A stretch of 64,000 nucleotides of DNA from Dermatemys mawii. Its lineage: Eukaryota > Chordata > Testudines > Dermatemydidae. The stretch spans positions 51,314,677-51,378,676 of the forward strand of contig ML677326.1 in the NCBI GenBank assembly GCA_007922305.1. Direction: 5' to 3'. Positions 22,565 to 62,040 of the stretch are shown here, one piece after another. Both the position numbers and the translations under genes were made by a program. Every line of letters starts with the position of its first letter. The first letter of the stretch is position 1. Under the pieces are notes generated by a model. The model saw only the letters and a list, made by a program, of their open reading frames with translations. It searched no databases and was not told the DNA's origin.

Positions 22565-22567
22565 TAA

Positions 22568-22690
22568 CACTGCTCTACAGCCAAAATGCTTCTGAAATAA
22601 ATGTAGTCAAACTTTACTAATTCTGGGTCACTGAGAACGAAAATGATGCTTAAAATTGTTGATTGACTCTAGTTTTCAAGATATGCTATT
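22568..22690 (+). repeat. Left terminal inverted repeat of the CACTA-like element
   Basis: This pairs by eye with the reverse complement of 24992-25117. Conserved blocks are CACTGcTCTACA at the tip, TGCTTCtGAaATAAA about 25-40 bases in, and GATtgacTctagTTTtcAAGATAT at the inner end. Gaps of a few bases separate the blocks. Confidence 0.7.
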
Positions 22691-22860
22691 GGGTCAGTAT
22701 ATACGACCCTTGACATGGGAATGGCGGAGGATAAGTGAGTTATAAAGGGAAGGGATTTCAATTTAAACCAGAAATGACTAAAATACATCTTTGACTGGAT
22801 CTATGAATAAATCTATGACTGGGTTTGGACAGTACTTGCTTTTTAGGCAAAACAATGAAT

Positions 22861-22940
22861 GATGCAATCTGAAGCTGGTATTGCATCATACATGATATGA
22901 ATTGTATCATGTTATTCCTAGAAGTCATGGATGATGCAAT
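22861..22940 (+). promoter_or_regulatory. Clustered GATGCAAT subterminal motifs
   Basis: GATGCAAT occurs at 22861-22868 and 22933-22940, its inverse ATTGCATC at 22880-22887, and a one-base variant ATTGTATC at 22901-22908. Four copies in 80 bases, in both orientations, lie between the left terminal repeat and the transposase start. CACTA elements usually carry subterminal motif arrays bound by their own proteins, so these are candidate transposase sites; that role is inferred. Confidence 0.5.
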
Positions 22941-23077
22941 CATAACGAAGCTTACATCACTCTGCTGAACAAATTGCCCTATATCAGCTCTAGAAATCAT
23001 ACAGTGTCGTGCTCTCTTATTTGTCAGTGTTTGATTTTGCAAAGGGACACATTTCTGTTTAGCCAAAGTGAGCAGAG

Positions 23078-24772
23078 ATGCCTCGTACTTGTGTGAACAG
23101 TGTAGATAACTTCTGCTATGTTTGTGGTGAAGTGACTTTTGCATCACAAAAGTGCAGTATAACCACTACGGTTAAGAAAGCCTATCACCTTTATTTTGGC
23201 TGCAAAATTGGAGATCAGGACAAGAGGTGGGCCCCACACATATGCCGCAACACTTGTGCAACAAATCTTTGCCAGTGGTTGAACAGGAAAAGGAAATCTA
23301 TGCCTTTTGCAGTGCCAATGATTTGGAGACAGCCAACAGATCATACCAGCAATTGTTACTTCTGCATGGTGCCTCCAGTTGGGAAAGGAGTGTCAAAGAA
23401 GAAAAAGTGGACTGTGCATTATCCAAACATTCCATCAGCTATACGCCCAATACCCCACGGAGAAGGACTGCCAGTTCCTGATGCACCAGAATCATTCTCA
23501 CTTGAGTCAGACGAGGAAGAGGAAGAGAATGAAACTTCTGGTCCTGAACCATCAATGTCACAGGACCCACATTTTCTCCCATCCTCCTCCTCTGAACCAC
23601 ACCTCATAACACAAGCTGAACTGAATGGCCTTGTCAGGGATTTGGAACTACCCAAGAGTAAGGCAGAGCTGTTGGGCTCCAGACTACAGCAGTGGAATCT
23701 CCTGGCAGGTGATGTTAGGGTTTCCATGTTCCATGACTGTCAGAAGGATCTTGTCCCATTCTTCTTCATGGAAGGTGATCTTGTAGCCTGCAACAACATC
23801 GATGGTGTGATGGCAGCCCTCAACATCGTTCACGATCCAGATGAGTGGAGACTCTTCATTGATTCATCAAAGACGAGTCTTAAAGCTGTTTTGCTGCATA
23901 ATGGCAATGTTTTGCCATCAATTCCAGTTGGTCATGCAGTCCATATGAAGGAAACCTATGACAACATGAAACAACTTTTGAGGTGCATAAACTATGACCA
24001 ACATCAGTGGCAGCTTTGTGGTGATTTGAAGGTTGTTGCTCTCTTGCTTGGTCTGAAGACTGGATACACAAAGTACTGCTGTTTTCTCTGTGAATGGGAT
24101 AGTCGTGCAAGAGATTCCCACTACATCAAGAAAGATTGGCCACTCCGACAGTCATTGGAGCCTGGGAGGAAAAGTGTTCAGCATCCACCACTTGTTGAAT
24201 CAAGGAAGATTTTGTTACCACCCTTACACATCAAGCTGGGTCTGATGAAGAACTTTGTCAAGACCATTGACAAAACACAAGCAGCTTTCAAGTACCTCCG
24301 TGGAAAATTTCCAAGGTTAAGTGAAGCTAAGATAAAGGAAGGTGTCTTTGTTGGTATTCAGATTCGTGAACTTCTTCGAGATGATACGTTTGACCATGCA
24401 CTGCATGGCAAGGAAAAGACGGCATGGAAAGCCTTCCAGTCAGTGGCAATACATTTTCTCGGAAACAACAAGGCAGACAACTACAGGTTGTTGGTGGAAA
24501 ACCTCCTCAAGGCATACAAAAGCCTTGGTTGCAACATGTCACTAAAGATACATTTTTTGCACTGTCATCTAGATTTTTTTCCTCCGAACTGCAGAGCAGT
24601 GAGCGACGAGCATGGTGAGCGATTTCACCAGGACATTGCAACAATGGAGAAACGCTATCAGGGCAAATGGTGCCCATCAATGCTTGCAGACTATTGCTGG
24701 ACAGTGACAAGACATGCTCCATTTAATGAATACAAGAGACAAGCCAAGAAGCGCCGAGTAGACACTGAATAG
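23078..24772 (+). CDS. CACTA-like transposase, intact 564-residue ORF
   Basis: A single uninterrupted frame begins ATGCCTCGTACTTGT and ends TAG. It should encode the enzyme that cuts and joins the element's ends in the nucleus. The N-terminus is cysteine-rich: C13-x2-C16, C26, then H54-x-C56-x3-C60-x4-C65 and C93-x2-C96, a likely zinc-binding DNA-recognition region. An acidic, serine-rich linker spans about 139-175. The presumed RNase H-like core follows: D262 in LFIDSSKTSLKAVLLHNG, D316 in CGDLKVVALLLGL, then C335-x2-C338 and H348, and acidic residues in SDEHGERFHQDI (E511 or E514). The second acidic residue followed by CxxC is characteristic of CMC-type cores. The C-terminus is basic (KRQAKKRR), a possible nuclear signal. 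There is no intron, stop or frameshift, unlike every other transposon frame here. The start fits: conserved residues begin at once after it. Catalytic assignment is by pattern only. Confidence 0.85.
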   Translation: MPRTCVNSVDNFCYVCGEVTFASQKCSITTTVKKAYHLYFGCKIGDQDKRWAPHICRNTCATNLCQWLNRKRKSMPFAVPMIWRQPTDHTSNCYFCMVPPVGKGVSKKKKWTVHYPNIPSAIRPIPHGEGLPVPDAPESFSLESDEEEEENETSGPEPSMSQDPHFLPSSSSEPHLITQAELNGLVRDLELPKSKAELLGSRLQQWNLLAGDVRVSMFHDCQKDLVPFFFMEGDLVACNNIDGVMAALNIVHDPDEWRLFIDSSKTSLKAVLLHNGNVLPSIPVGHAVHMKETYDNMKQLLRCINYDQHQWQLCGDLKVVALLLGLKTGYTKYCCFLCEWDSRARDSHYIKKDWPLRQSLEPGRKSVQHPPLVESRKILLPPLHIKLGLMKNFVKTIDKTQAAFKYLRGKFPRLSEAKIKEGVFVGIQIRELLRDDTFDHALHGKEKTAWKAFQSVAIHFLGNNKADNYRLLVENLLKAYKSLGCNMSLKIHFLHCHLDFFPPNCRAVSDEHGERFHQDIATMEKRYQGKWCPSMLADYCWTVTRHAPFNEYKRQAKKRRVDTE

Positions 24773-24991
24773 GACTAAACTATGTACATAATAGTTTTTT
24801 GCCTTTTGTTTCATAATACATTTCATTTATATAACCCTTTTTCTGATTGTTAAAGTGTTACCTAAACAGGACAGGTGAAATATTATCATGTAAAGCAACC
24901 ATAAACACATGAAAAAACCTAGGTTTACAATTTATGATTAAAACTCTACTACCTACACAATATACATAGACATAAAATCTAAAAACTTAAA

Positions 24992-25117
24992 TATCTTAGA
25001 AACAGTAGCCGATTAGTTGTTTTAATTGTCATATTTGAATTCAGCACATCAAAATACATAATAAACATCACATTTTATCTCTGAAGCAGATGACTTCTAA
25101 AAAATTGTAGACCAGTG
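24992..25117 (-). repeat. Right terminal inverted repeat of the CACTA-like element
   Basis: Its reverse complement begins CACTGGTCTACA and follows the left terminal repeat with small gaps. It includes an AATAAA at 25060-25065 on the plus strand, the only canonical poly(A) hexamer seen downstream of the transposase within the element. The terminal repeat may therefore also end the transcript. Confidence 0.7.
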
Positions 25118-25120
25118 TAA

Positions 25121-39757: not shown

Positions 39758-40057
39758 TCACCCCCGCAGGACGTCAATACCCAAAATGTACTTACCGATG
39801 GGTGCCACTAGTACCATCGCGTGGGAGGGTGGCGCCTTACCTAGGGTGAGAGTGAGAGTCACGGTGAACGCCCGTGGCTCCAAGCCACTCAGGCCCCGTA
39901 CCACAGTCAAGCGCCCCACTGCCTGCGTGGAGTGGAGGATGGTGATTTCGATTCCTGTGTCCAGCAAGGCCAGGACGTGCTGGATCCCTCCATGCGGCTG
40001 CTGGATCATGAGCGGGACGAAGGGGCGGCGGTCCCCCGCCTCCTGGGTCGGGCACAT
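39758..40057 (-). pseudogene. Retroviral-type aspartic protease fragment
   Basis: This 99-residue minus-strand frame contains ALLDTGIE at residues 30-37, the active-site D-T-G of retropepsins (the family more often has DTGA/DSGA). It ends in YILGIDVLRG, matching the conserved G-x-D-x-L block near the protease C-terminus. Spacing between the two is plausible for the family. It overlaps, in another frame, the neighbouring 39837-40217 frame, so a frameshift separates it from the upstream gag-like part. Directly after RG a stop follows and the expected reverse transcriptase is not found. It is inactive as part of an incomplete element. Confidence 0.75.
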
Positions 40058-40213
40058 GGCTGCACTCTGGACGGGGGACCCACCTCCCTGTCACAAGGCA
40101 CGCAGAAGACTCCAGTCTACTGGGGCATTTGGTTCCACCGGGTGTGCCAGCTTCTGCTCCTCTCTCCTCCCCCGGTTCCTGATGAAAAGTTTTCACAATC
40201 TCCTGTAGCTCAC

Positions 40214-40675
40214 TCATTTTGAAGGTACGGACAACCCTCTGAAGTGAACCACCCTTCGCTCACACCGGGTGCGCCTGTCAGGGGGGTCAGCCTCCTCACT
40301 CTCGGAGGCTGAGGAAGAACTCCAAATGTTGCCATCCCAGGTCTCAGGGTCCCACGAAGGGGCTGCTGTGACCACCCTGATCTGGGTGATTGTGATGGGC
40401 TTTCGCCCCTGTTTCATCCCTCGCTTGTTGGCAATACACGCTACGAGTGCCTCACAGCAGCGCGTGAGGGCTTGAGCCCTCTCCGCCTGCAAGGTCACCA
40501 CCTTCTGTGCTACCGCCCGCGCCTTTGCTTGCGCCAAACACTCTTGCGTTTTACCTTCTACAAGCCTCTGCAGACGCAGAAGCTCACTGTCCTGGGCCTG
40601 GAGTGCAGTTAGAAACAGCCACACCAACTCACCCATAGAGCATCGCTCCATCCCAGACGGCCGGCTGACCCACAA
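40214..40675 (-). pseudogene. Gag-like frame of the broken retroelement
   Basis: A 153-residue minus-strand frame lies between the primer binding site and the protease piece, where gag belongs. Residues 16-80 are rich in Leu, Gln, Glu and Ala (LFLTALQAQDSELLRLQRLVEG), suggesting a helical or coiled region. A Ser/Glu-rich stretch (SSSSASESEEADPPDRRTRCERR) follows. No zinc-knuckle CCHC is visible. The position supports gag; the sequence alone does not prove it. The frame opens at an internal ATG and may be truncated upstream. Confidence 0.55.
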
Positions 40676-40880
40676 CCAGTCCAGCCCCTCTATGAATGGC
40701 AGCGGCGTGACCCTAGCAACCTGGTGGTATTCAGGCCAATCCGCCGGGGCCGCCCAGCCGGTGACTACCCGCGCAACTGGCCCCCATTGCTCCGTCGGGG
40801 GGCCATTCCGGTATGCACTGCAGGGACAGCAACAACTTCCCTGCTTCCCCAGCCTTCAGCCAAAGGGGCATCATTCCATG

Positions 40881-48579: not shown

Positions 48580-49507
48580 TCTAGTCACCAAGGCCTGATA
48601 ATACTCAAGGAGCTGAGTAAGGAGACATCCCAGCCATTAGCAATTATCTTTGCAAAGTCATGGAAGATAGAAGAGATTCCAGATGACTAGAAAAGGCAAA
48701 TAGTGCCAATCTCTAAAAAGGGAAATAAGGACAACCTGGGAAATTACAGATCAGTCAGAGTAACTTCTGTACCTGGAAAGATAATGGAGCAAATAATTAA
48801 GCAATCAATTTGCAAACATCTAGAAGATAATAAGGTGATAAGTTACAGTCATGATGGATTCGTCAAGAATAAATTGTGTCAAACGAATCGGATAGCTTTC
48901 TTTGCCAGAGTCACAAGCCTTGTGGATAGGGGGAAAGCAGTAGATATGGTATATCTTGACTTTAGTAAAGCTTTTGATACAGTATCACATGACTGTCTCA
49001 TAAACAAACTAGGGAAATGCAACCAAGATGGAGCTAGTATAAGGTAGATACAAAATGGTTGGAAAACCATTTCCAGAGAGCAATTATCAGTGGATCACAA
49101 TCATGCTGGTAGGGCATAATGAATGGGATCCTGCAGGGATTAGTTCTGGTTCTGTTCAATATCTTCATCGGTGATTTAAATAATGGTTTATGGAGAGTAC
49201 ACTTATAAAGTTTGTGGATGATATCAAGCTGGGAGAGGTTGTAAGTGCCTTGGTGTATAGGATTAAAATTCATAATGATCTGGAGAAATGGTCTGAATGA
49301 ATAAGCATGGAATTCAATAAGGAGAAATGCAAAGTACTCTACTTAGGAAGGAACAATCAGTTGTACACATACAAAATGGGAAATGACTGCCAGTGTAACA
49401 CTATTGCAAAAAAAGCAAACATCATTCTTGGATGTATTAACAGGAATGTTGTAAGCAAGACACAAAAAGTAATTTTTCCAGTCTGTTCCATGCTGATTAG
49501 GCCTTAA
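48580..49507 (+). pseudogene. CR1 reverse transcriptase, frameshifted
   Basis: The open piece 48703-49047 holds the fingers and first palm motif: NLGNYRSVRVTSVPGKIMEQ, then YLDFSKAFDTVSH with the first catalytic aspartate. A stop follows at 49047. The second palm motif, FVDD (49211-49222), sits in another frame (offset 508 bases from the piece start), preceded by a QGLVLVLFNIFIGDLNN-like block. 49307-49507 continues with the thumb (FNKEKCKVLYLGRNN). The enzyme would copy CR1 RNA at a nicked target; here it cannot be made. Confidence 0.85.
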
Positions 49508-59402: not shown

Positions 59403-60538
59403 ATTTAACTGGGGTTTGACAAACACATTGAAATTTCAATTTGTGTGAGCCAAACAGATTCAACGTATTTTAATAAGATTTAAAATCACTTGTATTGATT
59501 TATATTTTAAGTTCAACTTGTTTCATATGTATTTAGATGGGATGTTTCTATGTACAGTATTGTCTGTTCACCCACTTCTGTTACCTAAAATGATGTAAAC
59601 ATGACAACAAAAGGCTAATGAATCAGCTGTTAGTATATTGTGTTGAAGCAGGTCGCAGGTATTATGAAATTCTCTGGTTGGCCATGTACAGCCCACGGGC
59701 TGGAGGTTGGGCAATCCTGACCCTAAGGATCTGGATCAAAGATTTTAGCAATAGCATGCTCTGTGTAGTTGCTTCTTCTAAGTGTCAGTAGCACTATAGC
59801 TGAAGCGCAATCAGCAGTAACTCACATATTAGCGGCCTGTGCTTCTTGGAGAAGAAGGACTTGATGTCTTACCCCAACTTTGATACATTTAGACCTATAG
59901 GGAAGGGAAATCATAAAAATAAAATCAAAGTCTATATACCACAGTGGCATCCTGAGATTTTCATCGCAATTAAGGGGAAGACTTTGCAGCCAGAGAAAAT
60001 GCTGATTGATTAGCATTGTGATGGACATCCCTAGAAGCATGGTAGACATATTTGAAAGCATTACAGTACTTCTGGAATGTCATGGTACAGCACCTGTGTG
60101 CATGTGGATATTTTGGGCATGCAGGGCTACAAACACATAGTATTATTAAAAACCAATCCCTTTTTATTGTTGATATTTCCTAGCTTTGCTCCTTGCATAT
60201 CACATTTTTTTATCTTTTCGAGCTGGAAAAGTAAGAGTTAATACTGAGAGTTTAAATTTGGCCCTACAAGATCATTAGTCTAATCTGTTAAATACAAAGA
60301 TTGTACTGGCAGGTCTCTGATTTTATTAATGCCCATGGTATCAAAACAACAAGTTTGTCATTATGATTACAAATGCACAGATGGACAAATATGCATTTTC
60401 ATTTTGGATTTTATTTATTTATTTTTAGAGAAGCCTCTGAGGCTGTTCTACTTGTAGAATAGTTTCCAAATGTTATGTGGAGCTTTCTAACAAGATACAA
60501 GCTTTTCTGTACTAAAGCACTGCATTTAAGTTTTCACT

Positions 60539-60590
<52 letters not shown>

Positions 60591-62040
60591 TCATTTGCAA
60601 GACATCTGGAGAAGGATTTTCTTGTCTAGAATTTTAGTTTTCTAGTTCACTTTGTAGGTAAGATCAAGTACTTATGAGCTGCAGGATTGCTCAGTGGAGA
60701 ACACTGTATGGGAATTTTGTAGGTTTGTCTGTAAGGTCAGGATCCAGGATCATGAATTCAGTAAAGTCAAATATGATAACTTATTTGAAATTCCCCTGAA
60801 CAAATGGATGTGCTCTGAATGCATATATTATTCTTCAATATTTATTCTTGATAGGCAGACCTGTACTATTATGATGTGGAGGTTAGCTGCTTGTCCGTAA
60901 TTTGCAAAATTCATTGTTATTAGCAAATAGAACTGAGAATTAAGTGAAGCAGCATTGGAGCTGAGTGGGGTGTAACTAGAAGGTTATAGTATTTACACAG
61001 TGCTGTATATGGCATTTAATGCCAAACCTTTATGTACGTGCGAGGGGAAAGTGGGCTCTGTACAAGAGGAAGATCAAAGAGAGATTCTGAGTTCTTCATT
61101 ACTGAGGGTCAGGGAAGACTTCTCTTAGAATCACCTGGGGAGTATACACACTTTGAAGAGAGCCAATGTGCACTGCTGAGATCCTATTCAGTCCACTGGC
61201 AATGTAGAAGGGCACCAGTTCTCTTTGGAAAGAGTATTAGGGTGGACACTGTGTTTTGGACTCCTCCTTCAGGTCAGAGTACTCCTGCAAATATCATGAG
61301 ATTTTTTTTTAAATTGTAATTTTGTATTTGCCTTCAGTGTTGAGTGTCTTTAGGGTTTAAGAATTTAAATTATTCTTCAAAACTGTAAGGACTAAAAATT
61401 TACTTTTTTAATGCTAAATAAAAACAGATTCTCACCTGGTTCCCAGAGCTGGGGCTTTATGAAAATACCAAATGTTGTAAGACTTGCAATAACGTTGCAA
61501 GAGCTTTAGTTGAATGTATCTTAAGCCTGTGCAGAAGGGATGGTAAGGAGGAGGGAGTCTTTCATACTTACTTTCCTGTTGGACTTCTCAGCACAGTCAG
61601 CTACAATCTGGCACTTAATTAGCATTGCAGAGATTATGGGAGGAAGAAGCTGGCACTCTTCGTTCAGTTGGATCAATAAGGGTTTTCCAGTGCATTAATG
61701 CATTTCATTCGAAGAATATGTGAATAACTTCAAATTTGTTATCCATAGTCACTCCAGAGCTGAAGGAAGCTTATGAGCCTATACTAGCCCCTTTTTAACA
61801 ACAGAGCTGGCCTCTGAGCCTCGTGAAGGAAAATATGAACAGTCCTTGAAAAAAATATTTCTAGCCTTGAAAACAAACAATTGAAAATCTAATGCTATGG
61901 CTGACACATTCTAATTCTTCTGAAGGAGACTTGGCGAATCTAATGATTTTCACCATTACCCCTGCCATACTTGCAATATAAAATGTGTTGCTTAGGTTTG
62001 AGATATGTCATAATGAATCCCCAAAATCATTATATTGTCC
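59403..62040. other. 2.6 kb, no gene recognised
   Basis: Apart from the TTTC microsatellite listed separately, I find no repeat boundary or domain. The frames at 60694-60900 and 61032-61319 have no recognisable features. Confidence 0.5.
60538..60592 (+). repeat. (TTTC)n microsatellite
   Basis: About 13 uninterrupted TTTC units. The purity suggests the locus is young or length-polymorphic. Confidence 0.97.

Follow-up and report, generated by a model that had tools for sequence, protein, structure and literature searches.

A full-length DNA transposon, most likely of the Chapaev3 group, and its recently expanded family in the turtle Dermatemys mawii

The element, its borders and its gene

The window (the whole stretch of 64,000 nucleotides that was analysed) carries at 22568..25117, on the + strand, a complete DNA transposon of 2550 bp, most likely of Chapaev3 type, with an extent that is common to its genomic copies. 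In the window sequence the element begins with CACTG, ends with CAGTG and is flanked by a 3-bp target duplication, TAA, at 22565..22567 on the left and 25118..25120 on the right, all as an earlier sequence-only reading of this DNA had claimed. An A (22564) precedes the left TAA and a T (25121) follows the right one, the target of this copy reading A-TAA / TAA-T. Imperfect terminal inverted repeats of about 120 bp with soft inner edges were placed by gapped consensus alignment at 22568..22687 (+) and 24998..25117 (-). In gapped local alignment the 200-bp ends of the family consensus score 69, whereas 300 plain shuffles never exceeded 56, and the end-to-end alignment of the consensus extends over some 180 bp, with the tips CACTGxTCTACA: the inverted repeats reported earlier are real and imperfect, and the length of about 120 bp then given to them is fair but soft. 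The default repeat search, for which the inverted ends are too imperfect, leaves them off its list.

The genome that holds the window (1.81 Gb in 1030 contigs) yielded 3149 first-look candidates, 40 of which were scored, and all 40 match at 97-100% identity. Their span is 1-2550 in 38 copies and 1-2548 in the other two, which differ in the last two bases; the borders of the element are thus not chance, and in the scored copies they do not lie elsewhere. All 40 distinct copies start with CACTG and 37 have GTG at the end, the exceptions being L012 (ATG) and the pair L035 and L043 with the two differing last bases. When both flanks were compared, identical 3-mers were found in 34 of the 40 copies and identical 4-mers only once, in agreement with the 3-bp duplication first proposed. 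The duplicated 3-mers are TTA (18 copies), TAA (10), ATA (2), TAT (2), CTA (1) and TGA (1), so that TTA or TAA makes up 28 of the 34. The preceding base is A in 30 of the 40 copies and the following base T in 32, a majority though not always.

For the 34 copies whose 3-mers match, the joined flanks were searched against the fetched loci and the window for unoccupied sites, and gave eight junction-crossing alignments from five distinct copies. L016 (ATA) aligns ungapped to unoccupied relatives at two distinct places and L039 (TTA) to one, in each case with a single 3-mer; L006 and L008/L014 show no gap at the junction but differ in sequence at the site, and for L022 the alignment has a gap in that place. 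The unoccupied sites are paralogous, not orthologous, and 67-79% alike, and because of this the backing that they would give to the single-3-mer rule, found in two of the five crossing copies, is moderate. Empty sites, which the earlier reading had proposed to look for, were seen with a single 3-mer for siblings; the window copy has none among the fetched loci and the window.

The transposase gene occupies one open frame, 564 codons and a stop, at 23078..24772 (+), uninterrupted as first described, with 2215 homologous proteins at E <= 0.001. Its Cys/His-rich N-terminal part, residues 1-100 (23078..23377, +), holds conserved cysteines and histidines between residues 13 and 96 of a 62-sequence alignment (C13, C16, C57, C60, H89, C93 and C96, with R at 57 in the window copy), and by this pattern is probably the Chapa zinc finger, a domain that occurs in Chapaev3 (PMC4411706). 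The catalytic core, residues 175-551 (23600..24730, +), has a predicted RAG1/Transib fold. Within it, and on the same strand, lie D262 (23861..23863) and D316 (24023..24025), the proposed first and second catalytic Asp, both invariant in the 62-sequence alignment, and E514 (24617..24619), the proposed catalytic Glu, at least 90% conserved; their putative catalytic role is drawn from conservation, not from a structure. Three further motifs stand out by conservation in the same alignment: C(2)C at C335-x2-C338 (24080..24091, +), LH at L383-H384 (24224..24229, +) and H(4)H at H492-x4-H497 (24551..24568, +). The window copy retains all of these residues, from D262 to E514.

As to the earlier remark that the frames of the other transposons here are broken, the next longest stop-to-stop frame in the rest of the window has 213 codons. 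A reverse transcriptase fragment at 48691-49047 (+) matches Pfam RVT_1 (E 8.9e-11), and by its wording we take it to be from a CR1-type LINE. A retroelement-like region at 39758-40855 (-) has a weak match to a retroviral aspartyl protease (RVP, E 0.0013, below the curated cut-off), and the 213-codon open frame beside it has no Pfam match. A perfect TTCT tetranucleotide array of 13.8 copies occupies 60538-60592, and Rfam gave no match in the window. Outside the window, locus L082 carries mitochondrial-like DNA on a nuclear contig, with a cytochrome b frame and, close by on the opposite strand, a second frame that by its wording is presumably cytochrome oxidase I-like. It is one of 5 matches that a cytochrome b search of the genome gave, all of them on contigs that look nuclear; mitochondrial DNA was met as fragments on large contigs, and no intact mitochondrial genome was found. 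For a translation of 229 residues from L082, the best 120 of 8000 rows are all from turtles, sea turtles leading at 88%, which supports a cryptodiran turtle as the host.

Classification and predicted fold

The element is most likely a cut-and-paste DNA transposon of the Chapaev3 group (CMC / Transib superfamily) and not of CACTA/EnSpm, because its A-TWA-T target and its CMC motifs fit the description in PMC4079192 and because its transposase has a predicted RAG1/Transib fold. According to the available text of that paper, CACTA and Chapaev both stand within the CMC (CACTA-Mirage-Chapaev) group; Chapaev elements have CAC...GTG termini, duplications of 3-4 bp, and the motifs C(2)C, LH and H(4)H with a DDE core; and Chapaev3 follows the rule of a TWA duplication with insertion between A and T.

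The window protein has zero Pfam or NCBIfam family matches, and its 62 relatives give only weak Pfam matches, among them zf-AD (in three, best E 0.0017), RNase H-like domains (in two each) and a RAG1 importin-binding model (in one of the 62, E 0.23). Sequence searches of the PDB gave nothing below E 0.99. Only the fold comparison is informative: it predicts a RAG1-like catalytic core in residues 175-551, at 9-14% identity to RAG1 and Transib.

The sequence-only reading had called the element CACTA-type. As a DNA transposon of the broad CMC group that name stands; as a placement in the CACTA/EnSpm branch it does not, and we regard strict membership in CACTA/EnSpm as very improbable. The CACTG...CAGTG ends and the 3-bp duplication would be compatible with such an element, known from plants and some animals, and the CMC group is common to both branches, but the insertion sites show a strong preference for TWA with an A before it and a T after it, which is the Chapaev3 rule. 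To our knowledge CACTA/EnSpm has no TWA rule. Among the 25 Pfam families listed of the 29 that the 62 relatives match at E <= 1 there is no CACTA transposase model, and in the profile check proposed earlier the window protein itself has no Pfam match, though a member of CACTA/EnSpm may also go unmatched by a model. The predicted fold is RAG1/Transib, although the fold comparisons listed include no CACTA structure, and the sizes of element and protein lie near those of the Chapaev3 families Merrow and Garfield (PMC4079192, in the available form of its Table 1). Plant-type CACTA as a precise label was dropped on the target rule and the predicted fold.

Copy number, age and decay of the family

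An exact left-end pattern, TWA followed by the first 21 bases of the element, occurs 2,073 times genome-wide (1041 + 1032), and its reversed control 0 times. We followed the first 30 left-end sites of one contig (C1) for 1.5 kb downstream each: 26 run to the fetched end, one has an internal deletion, one is a piece of about 130 bp in which the two element ends flank a run of N, and two stop early, their match ending after 53 and 369 bases (the 53-base one contains an assembly gap). Four of the 30 were followed to 2.6 kb; two of these reach base 2550, one stops at 2398 and one is the gap case. Most left-end sites look like long copies, which by extrapolation would amount to about 0.25% of the genome if 26 of 30 are full length. 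At L064 (about 1504-1635) the left and right element ends stand around a run of 10 N; the piece is a miniature derivative or else a long copy interrupted by an assembly gap. Assembly duplication was ruled out for the second-best copy, L002; its flanks differ and it has its own TTA duplication, and it is therefore an independent insertion.

The 40 scored copies, a set biased towards similarity to the window copy, differ from the consensus by a mean of 1.36% (K2P; 1.02% outside CpG) and from one another by 2.61%, the pairwise value being close to twice the consensus distance, as in a star-like burst. In a set of 26 copies for which an intact left end was the only requirement (the four of 30 that were short or deleted having been dropped), the distance to the consensus over the first 1.44 kb has a mean of 1.80% and a range of 0.83-3.33%. 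At 1.76% the window copy lies near the family average in age. The human neutral rate is near 2.2e-9. The turtle rate is about one third of the human one in the available text of PMC4054807, and these two rates together suggest a burst very roughly 10-30 million years ago. The first reading was right about the amniote host and the complete transposon with 3-bp duplications, and the family is a recently expanded one.

The spread of divergence is twice Poisson, and L002 (G000:C801:7769-10318, on a contig of 14,670 bp) is much younger than the others, so the activity of the family was not confined to one instant. L002 lies 0.39% from the consensus (0.20% outside CpG), the lowest of the 40, with a Poisson P of 9e-7, or 4e-5 allowing for 40 copies, and it may be the mark of much later jumping. 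From this copy with its TTA duplication, from L047 at 0.83% over the first 1.44 kb and from the overdispersed divergence one could argue that the family is still jumping in the turtle and that the window copy is one of its older members. We consider this unlikely: only L002 lies below 0.9% among the 40 scored, its open frame stops after 356 codons, and each of the 15 open-frame copies has lost at least one of the 162 conserved residues described below, although with 40 of 3149 candidates scored an intact young copy has possibly been missed.

An earlier suggestion was that the gene of the window copy had been kept by selection, and its 564 open codons with all DDE, C(2)C, LH and H(4)H residues retained do invite the reading of a domesticated or selectively kept copy. 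When the intact copies were counted, however, the 564 codons proved equally open in 15 of the 40 scored copies, and there is no stop in about the first 330 codons of 12 of the 26 left-end copies, some of them with indels. With 30 coding changes the chance of remaining stop-free is 0.26, indels ignored. Against the consensus the 40 copies show 647 nonsynonymous and 285 synonymous changes, besides 39 that give a stop; once corrected for CpG and transition bias, dN/dS is 0.86 (nominal P 0.04), and 0.76 (P 0.02) in the 15 copies without a stop change. These values below 1 would favour selection, as would the 0.76 of the window copy, but there the deficit is not significant (20 nonsynonymous changes where 21.7 are expected, and 10 synonymous; P 0.54). 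A mild nonsynonymous deficit exists family-wide, not demonstrably in the window copy, and its source could be changes inherited while the family was active, or the mutation model. Noncoding sequence moreover diverges no faster (1.16%) than coding sequence (1.43%).

The conserved residues argue in the same direction. Relatives show at least 95% conservation at 162 positions, and there the consensus protein agrees throughout (162/162), whereas the window copy departs at nine, one N-terminal cysteine included; that is nine of its 19 amino-acid changes against 5.5 at random (P(>=9) 0.066). Because nine of the 162 positions are changed, the window transposase is probably impaired though its frame is open. 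Near-neutral substitutions, the open frames of siblings and the lost conserved residues led us to reject domestication or selection as the main reading, and we give it very little credence; an open frame of this sort is to be expected in a family that is young and near-neutral.

Relatives, proposed history and comparison with known systems

Protein relatives were taken from the best 120 of 2215 for the window query and from the 120 listed for a second search. Among the matches listed, the closest named one, from Chrysemys picta bellii, is identical to the consensus at 92.5% of 374 residues, and the closest named relative outside turtles is a lamprey protein, P0024 of Lethenteron reissneri (81.9% of 475 residues), identical at 363 of 413 positions outside a divergent stretch at residues 91-150. 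Other proteins as near or nearer to the consensus are an ENA protein (99.3%), P0118 (95.7%) and P0002 (80.9%), and P0121 is 83% identical to the window copy. In a FastTree phylogeny, midpoint-rooted and built without rows of 450 aa or less except P0050, the Chrysemys and Lethenteron proteins group with the turtle consensus with a support of 0.988. P0024 (LOC133349820) is annotated as an uncharacterized host protein and resembles a decayed transposon copy, as does the Chrysemys model P0050 (LOC101953070).

The lineages of lampreys and jawed vertebrates parted about 500 million years ago, according to the available text of PMC4079192, and because the lamprey match is so near despite that split, horizontal transfer between the lamprey and turtle lineages, in either direction, is likely from these sequences. 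The same source documents Chapaev transfers among lampreys, fishes, insects, tenrec and anole, and the lamprey-protein match would put turtles among the hosts already linked in this way. Viral contigs were scanned twice for a possible carrier and yielded no relative, although a viral carrier may exist all the same.

In the history that we propose, the transposase would cut the element out at the CAC and GTG termini and place it into A-TWA-T sites, by a catalysis for which the predicted RAG/Transib fold suggests hairpin-type cleavage. The family would have come in horizontally, from a source in common with lampreys, and expanded in one main burst some 10-30 million years ago, of which the window copy, with its open frame and probably impaired transposase, would be an ordinary, near-neutral relic. 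As a whole, the explanation of the locus as a full-length Chapaev3-group copy with a 3-bp duplication, a RAG1-like predicted fold, A-TWA-T insertion and an origin in this burst appears to us highly probable; its observed part rests on the borders, the duplication, the unoccupied sites of two siblings, the left ends and the conserved DDE/C(2)C/LH/H(4)H residues. In a bolder account, a Chapaev3 element passed between the lineages of lampreys and turtles and then multiplied into thousands of copies, most of them long and far more than are tabulated so far for Chapaev3 families, and its transposase of RAG1 fold is perhaps still moving in living turtles. This account we offer as tentative and rather doubtful.

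What is new here is a probable Chapaev3 element in a turtle, and its copy number is striking. Among the titles listed from the open-access literature searched, none reports Chapaev3 from turtles, a scope outside which Repbase and most subscription journals lie; the word 'turtle' is absent from the available text of PMC4079192, as are 'Chapaev' and 'turtle' from the main text, in its available form, of a vertebrate-wide transfer survey (PMC7070016), and a reptile review, in the portion available, calls Chapaev extinct in anole (PMC7397244). Table 1 of PMC4079192, as available, tabulates >254 Merrow copies in sea lamprey and 281 of a short derivative in anole; the 2,073 exact left ends counted here compare with at most a few hundred copies per species there, though the counting methods differ. 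The same text describes the biology of Chapaev3 transposases as largely uncharacterized. Thousands of young, mostly long copies would be a natural test bed in which ends, target choice and the shared protein are directly readable.

The closest published family is Merrow of lampreys (Chapaev3-1_PM, in lampreys and fishes; PMC4079192, available text), compared here by description; its members are delimited by a nucleotide identity of at least 80%. It shares with the turtle element the CAC...GTG ends and the TWA duplication; Merrow has 2451 bp and 562 aa where the turtle element has 2550 bp and 564 aa, and its gene is in two exons (78 + 484 aa), in contrast to one open frame of 564 codons. Conan (Chapaev3-1_ET and relatives, in tenrec and anole) is likewise a Chapaev3 family in amniotes, but Conan_ET is shorter (1865 bp, with a 461-aa protein); it is described as old in anole and was reported absent from the other mammalian and reptilian genomes then available (PMC4079192, same text). 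The turtle hAT-6_XT, from the available text of PMC11008031, was set aside as unrelated, being a hAT element with 8-bp duplications.

The Transib transposase and RAG1 resemble the turtle protein in the predicted fold of residues 175-551; they differ from it in sequence, with the low identity given above, and the element has no RAG2-like second gene. The duplications made by Transib and RAG are 5 bp long. Chapaev3 transposases are related to the RAG1 recombinase, which cuts antibody genes.
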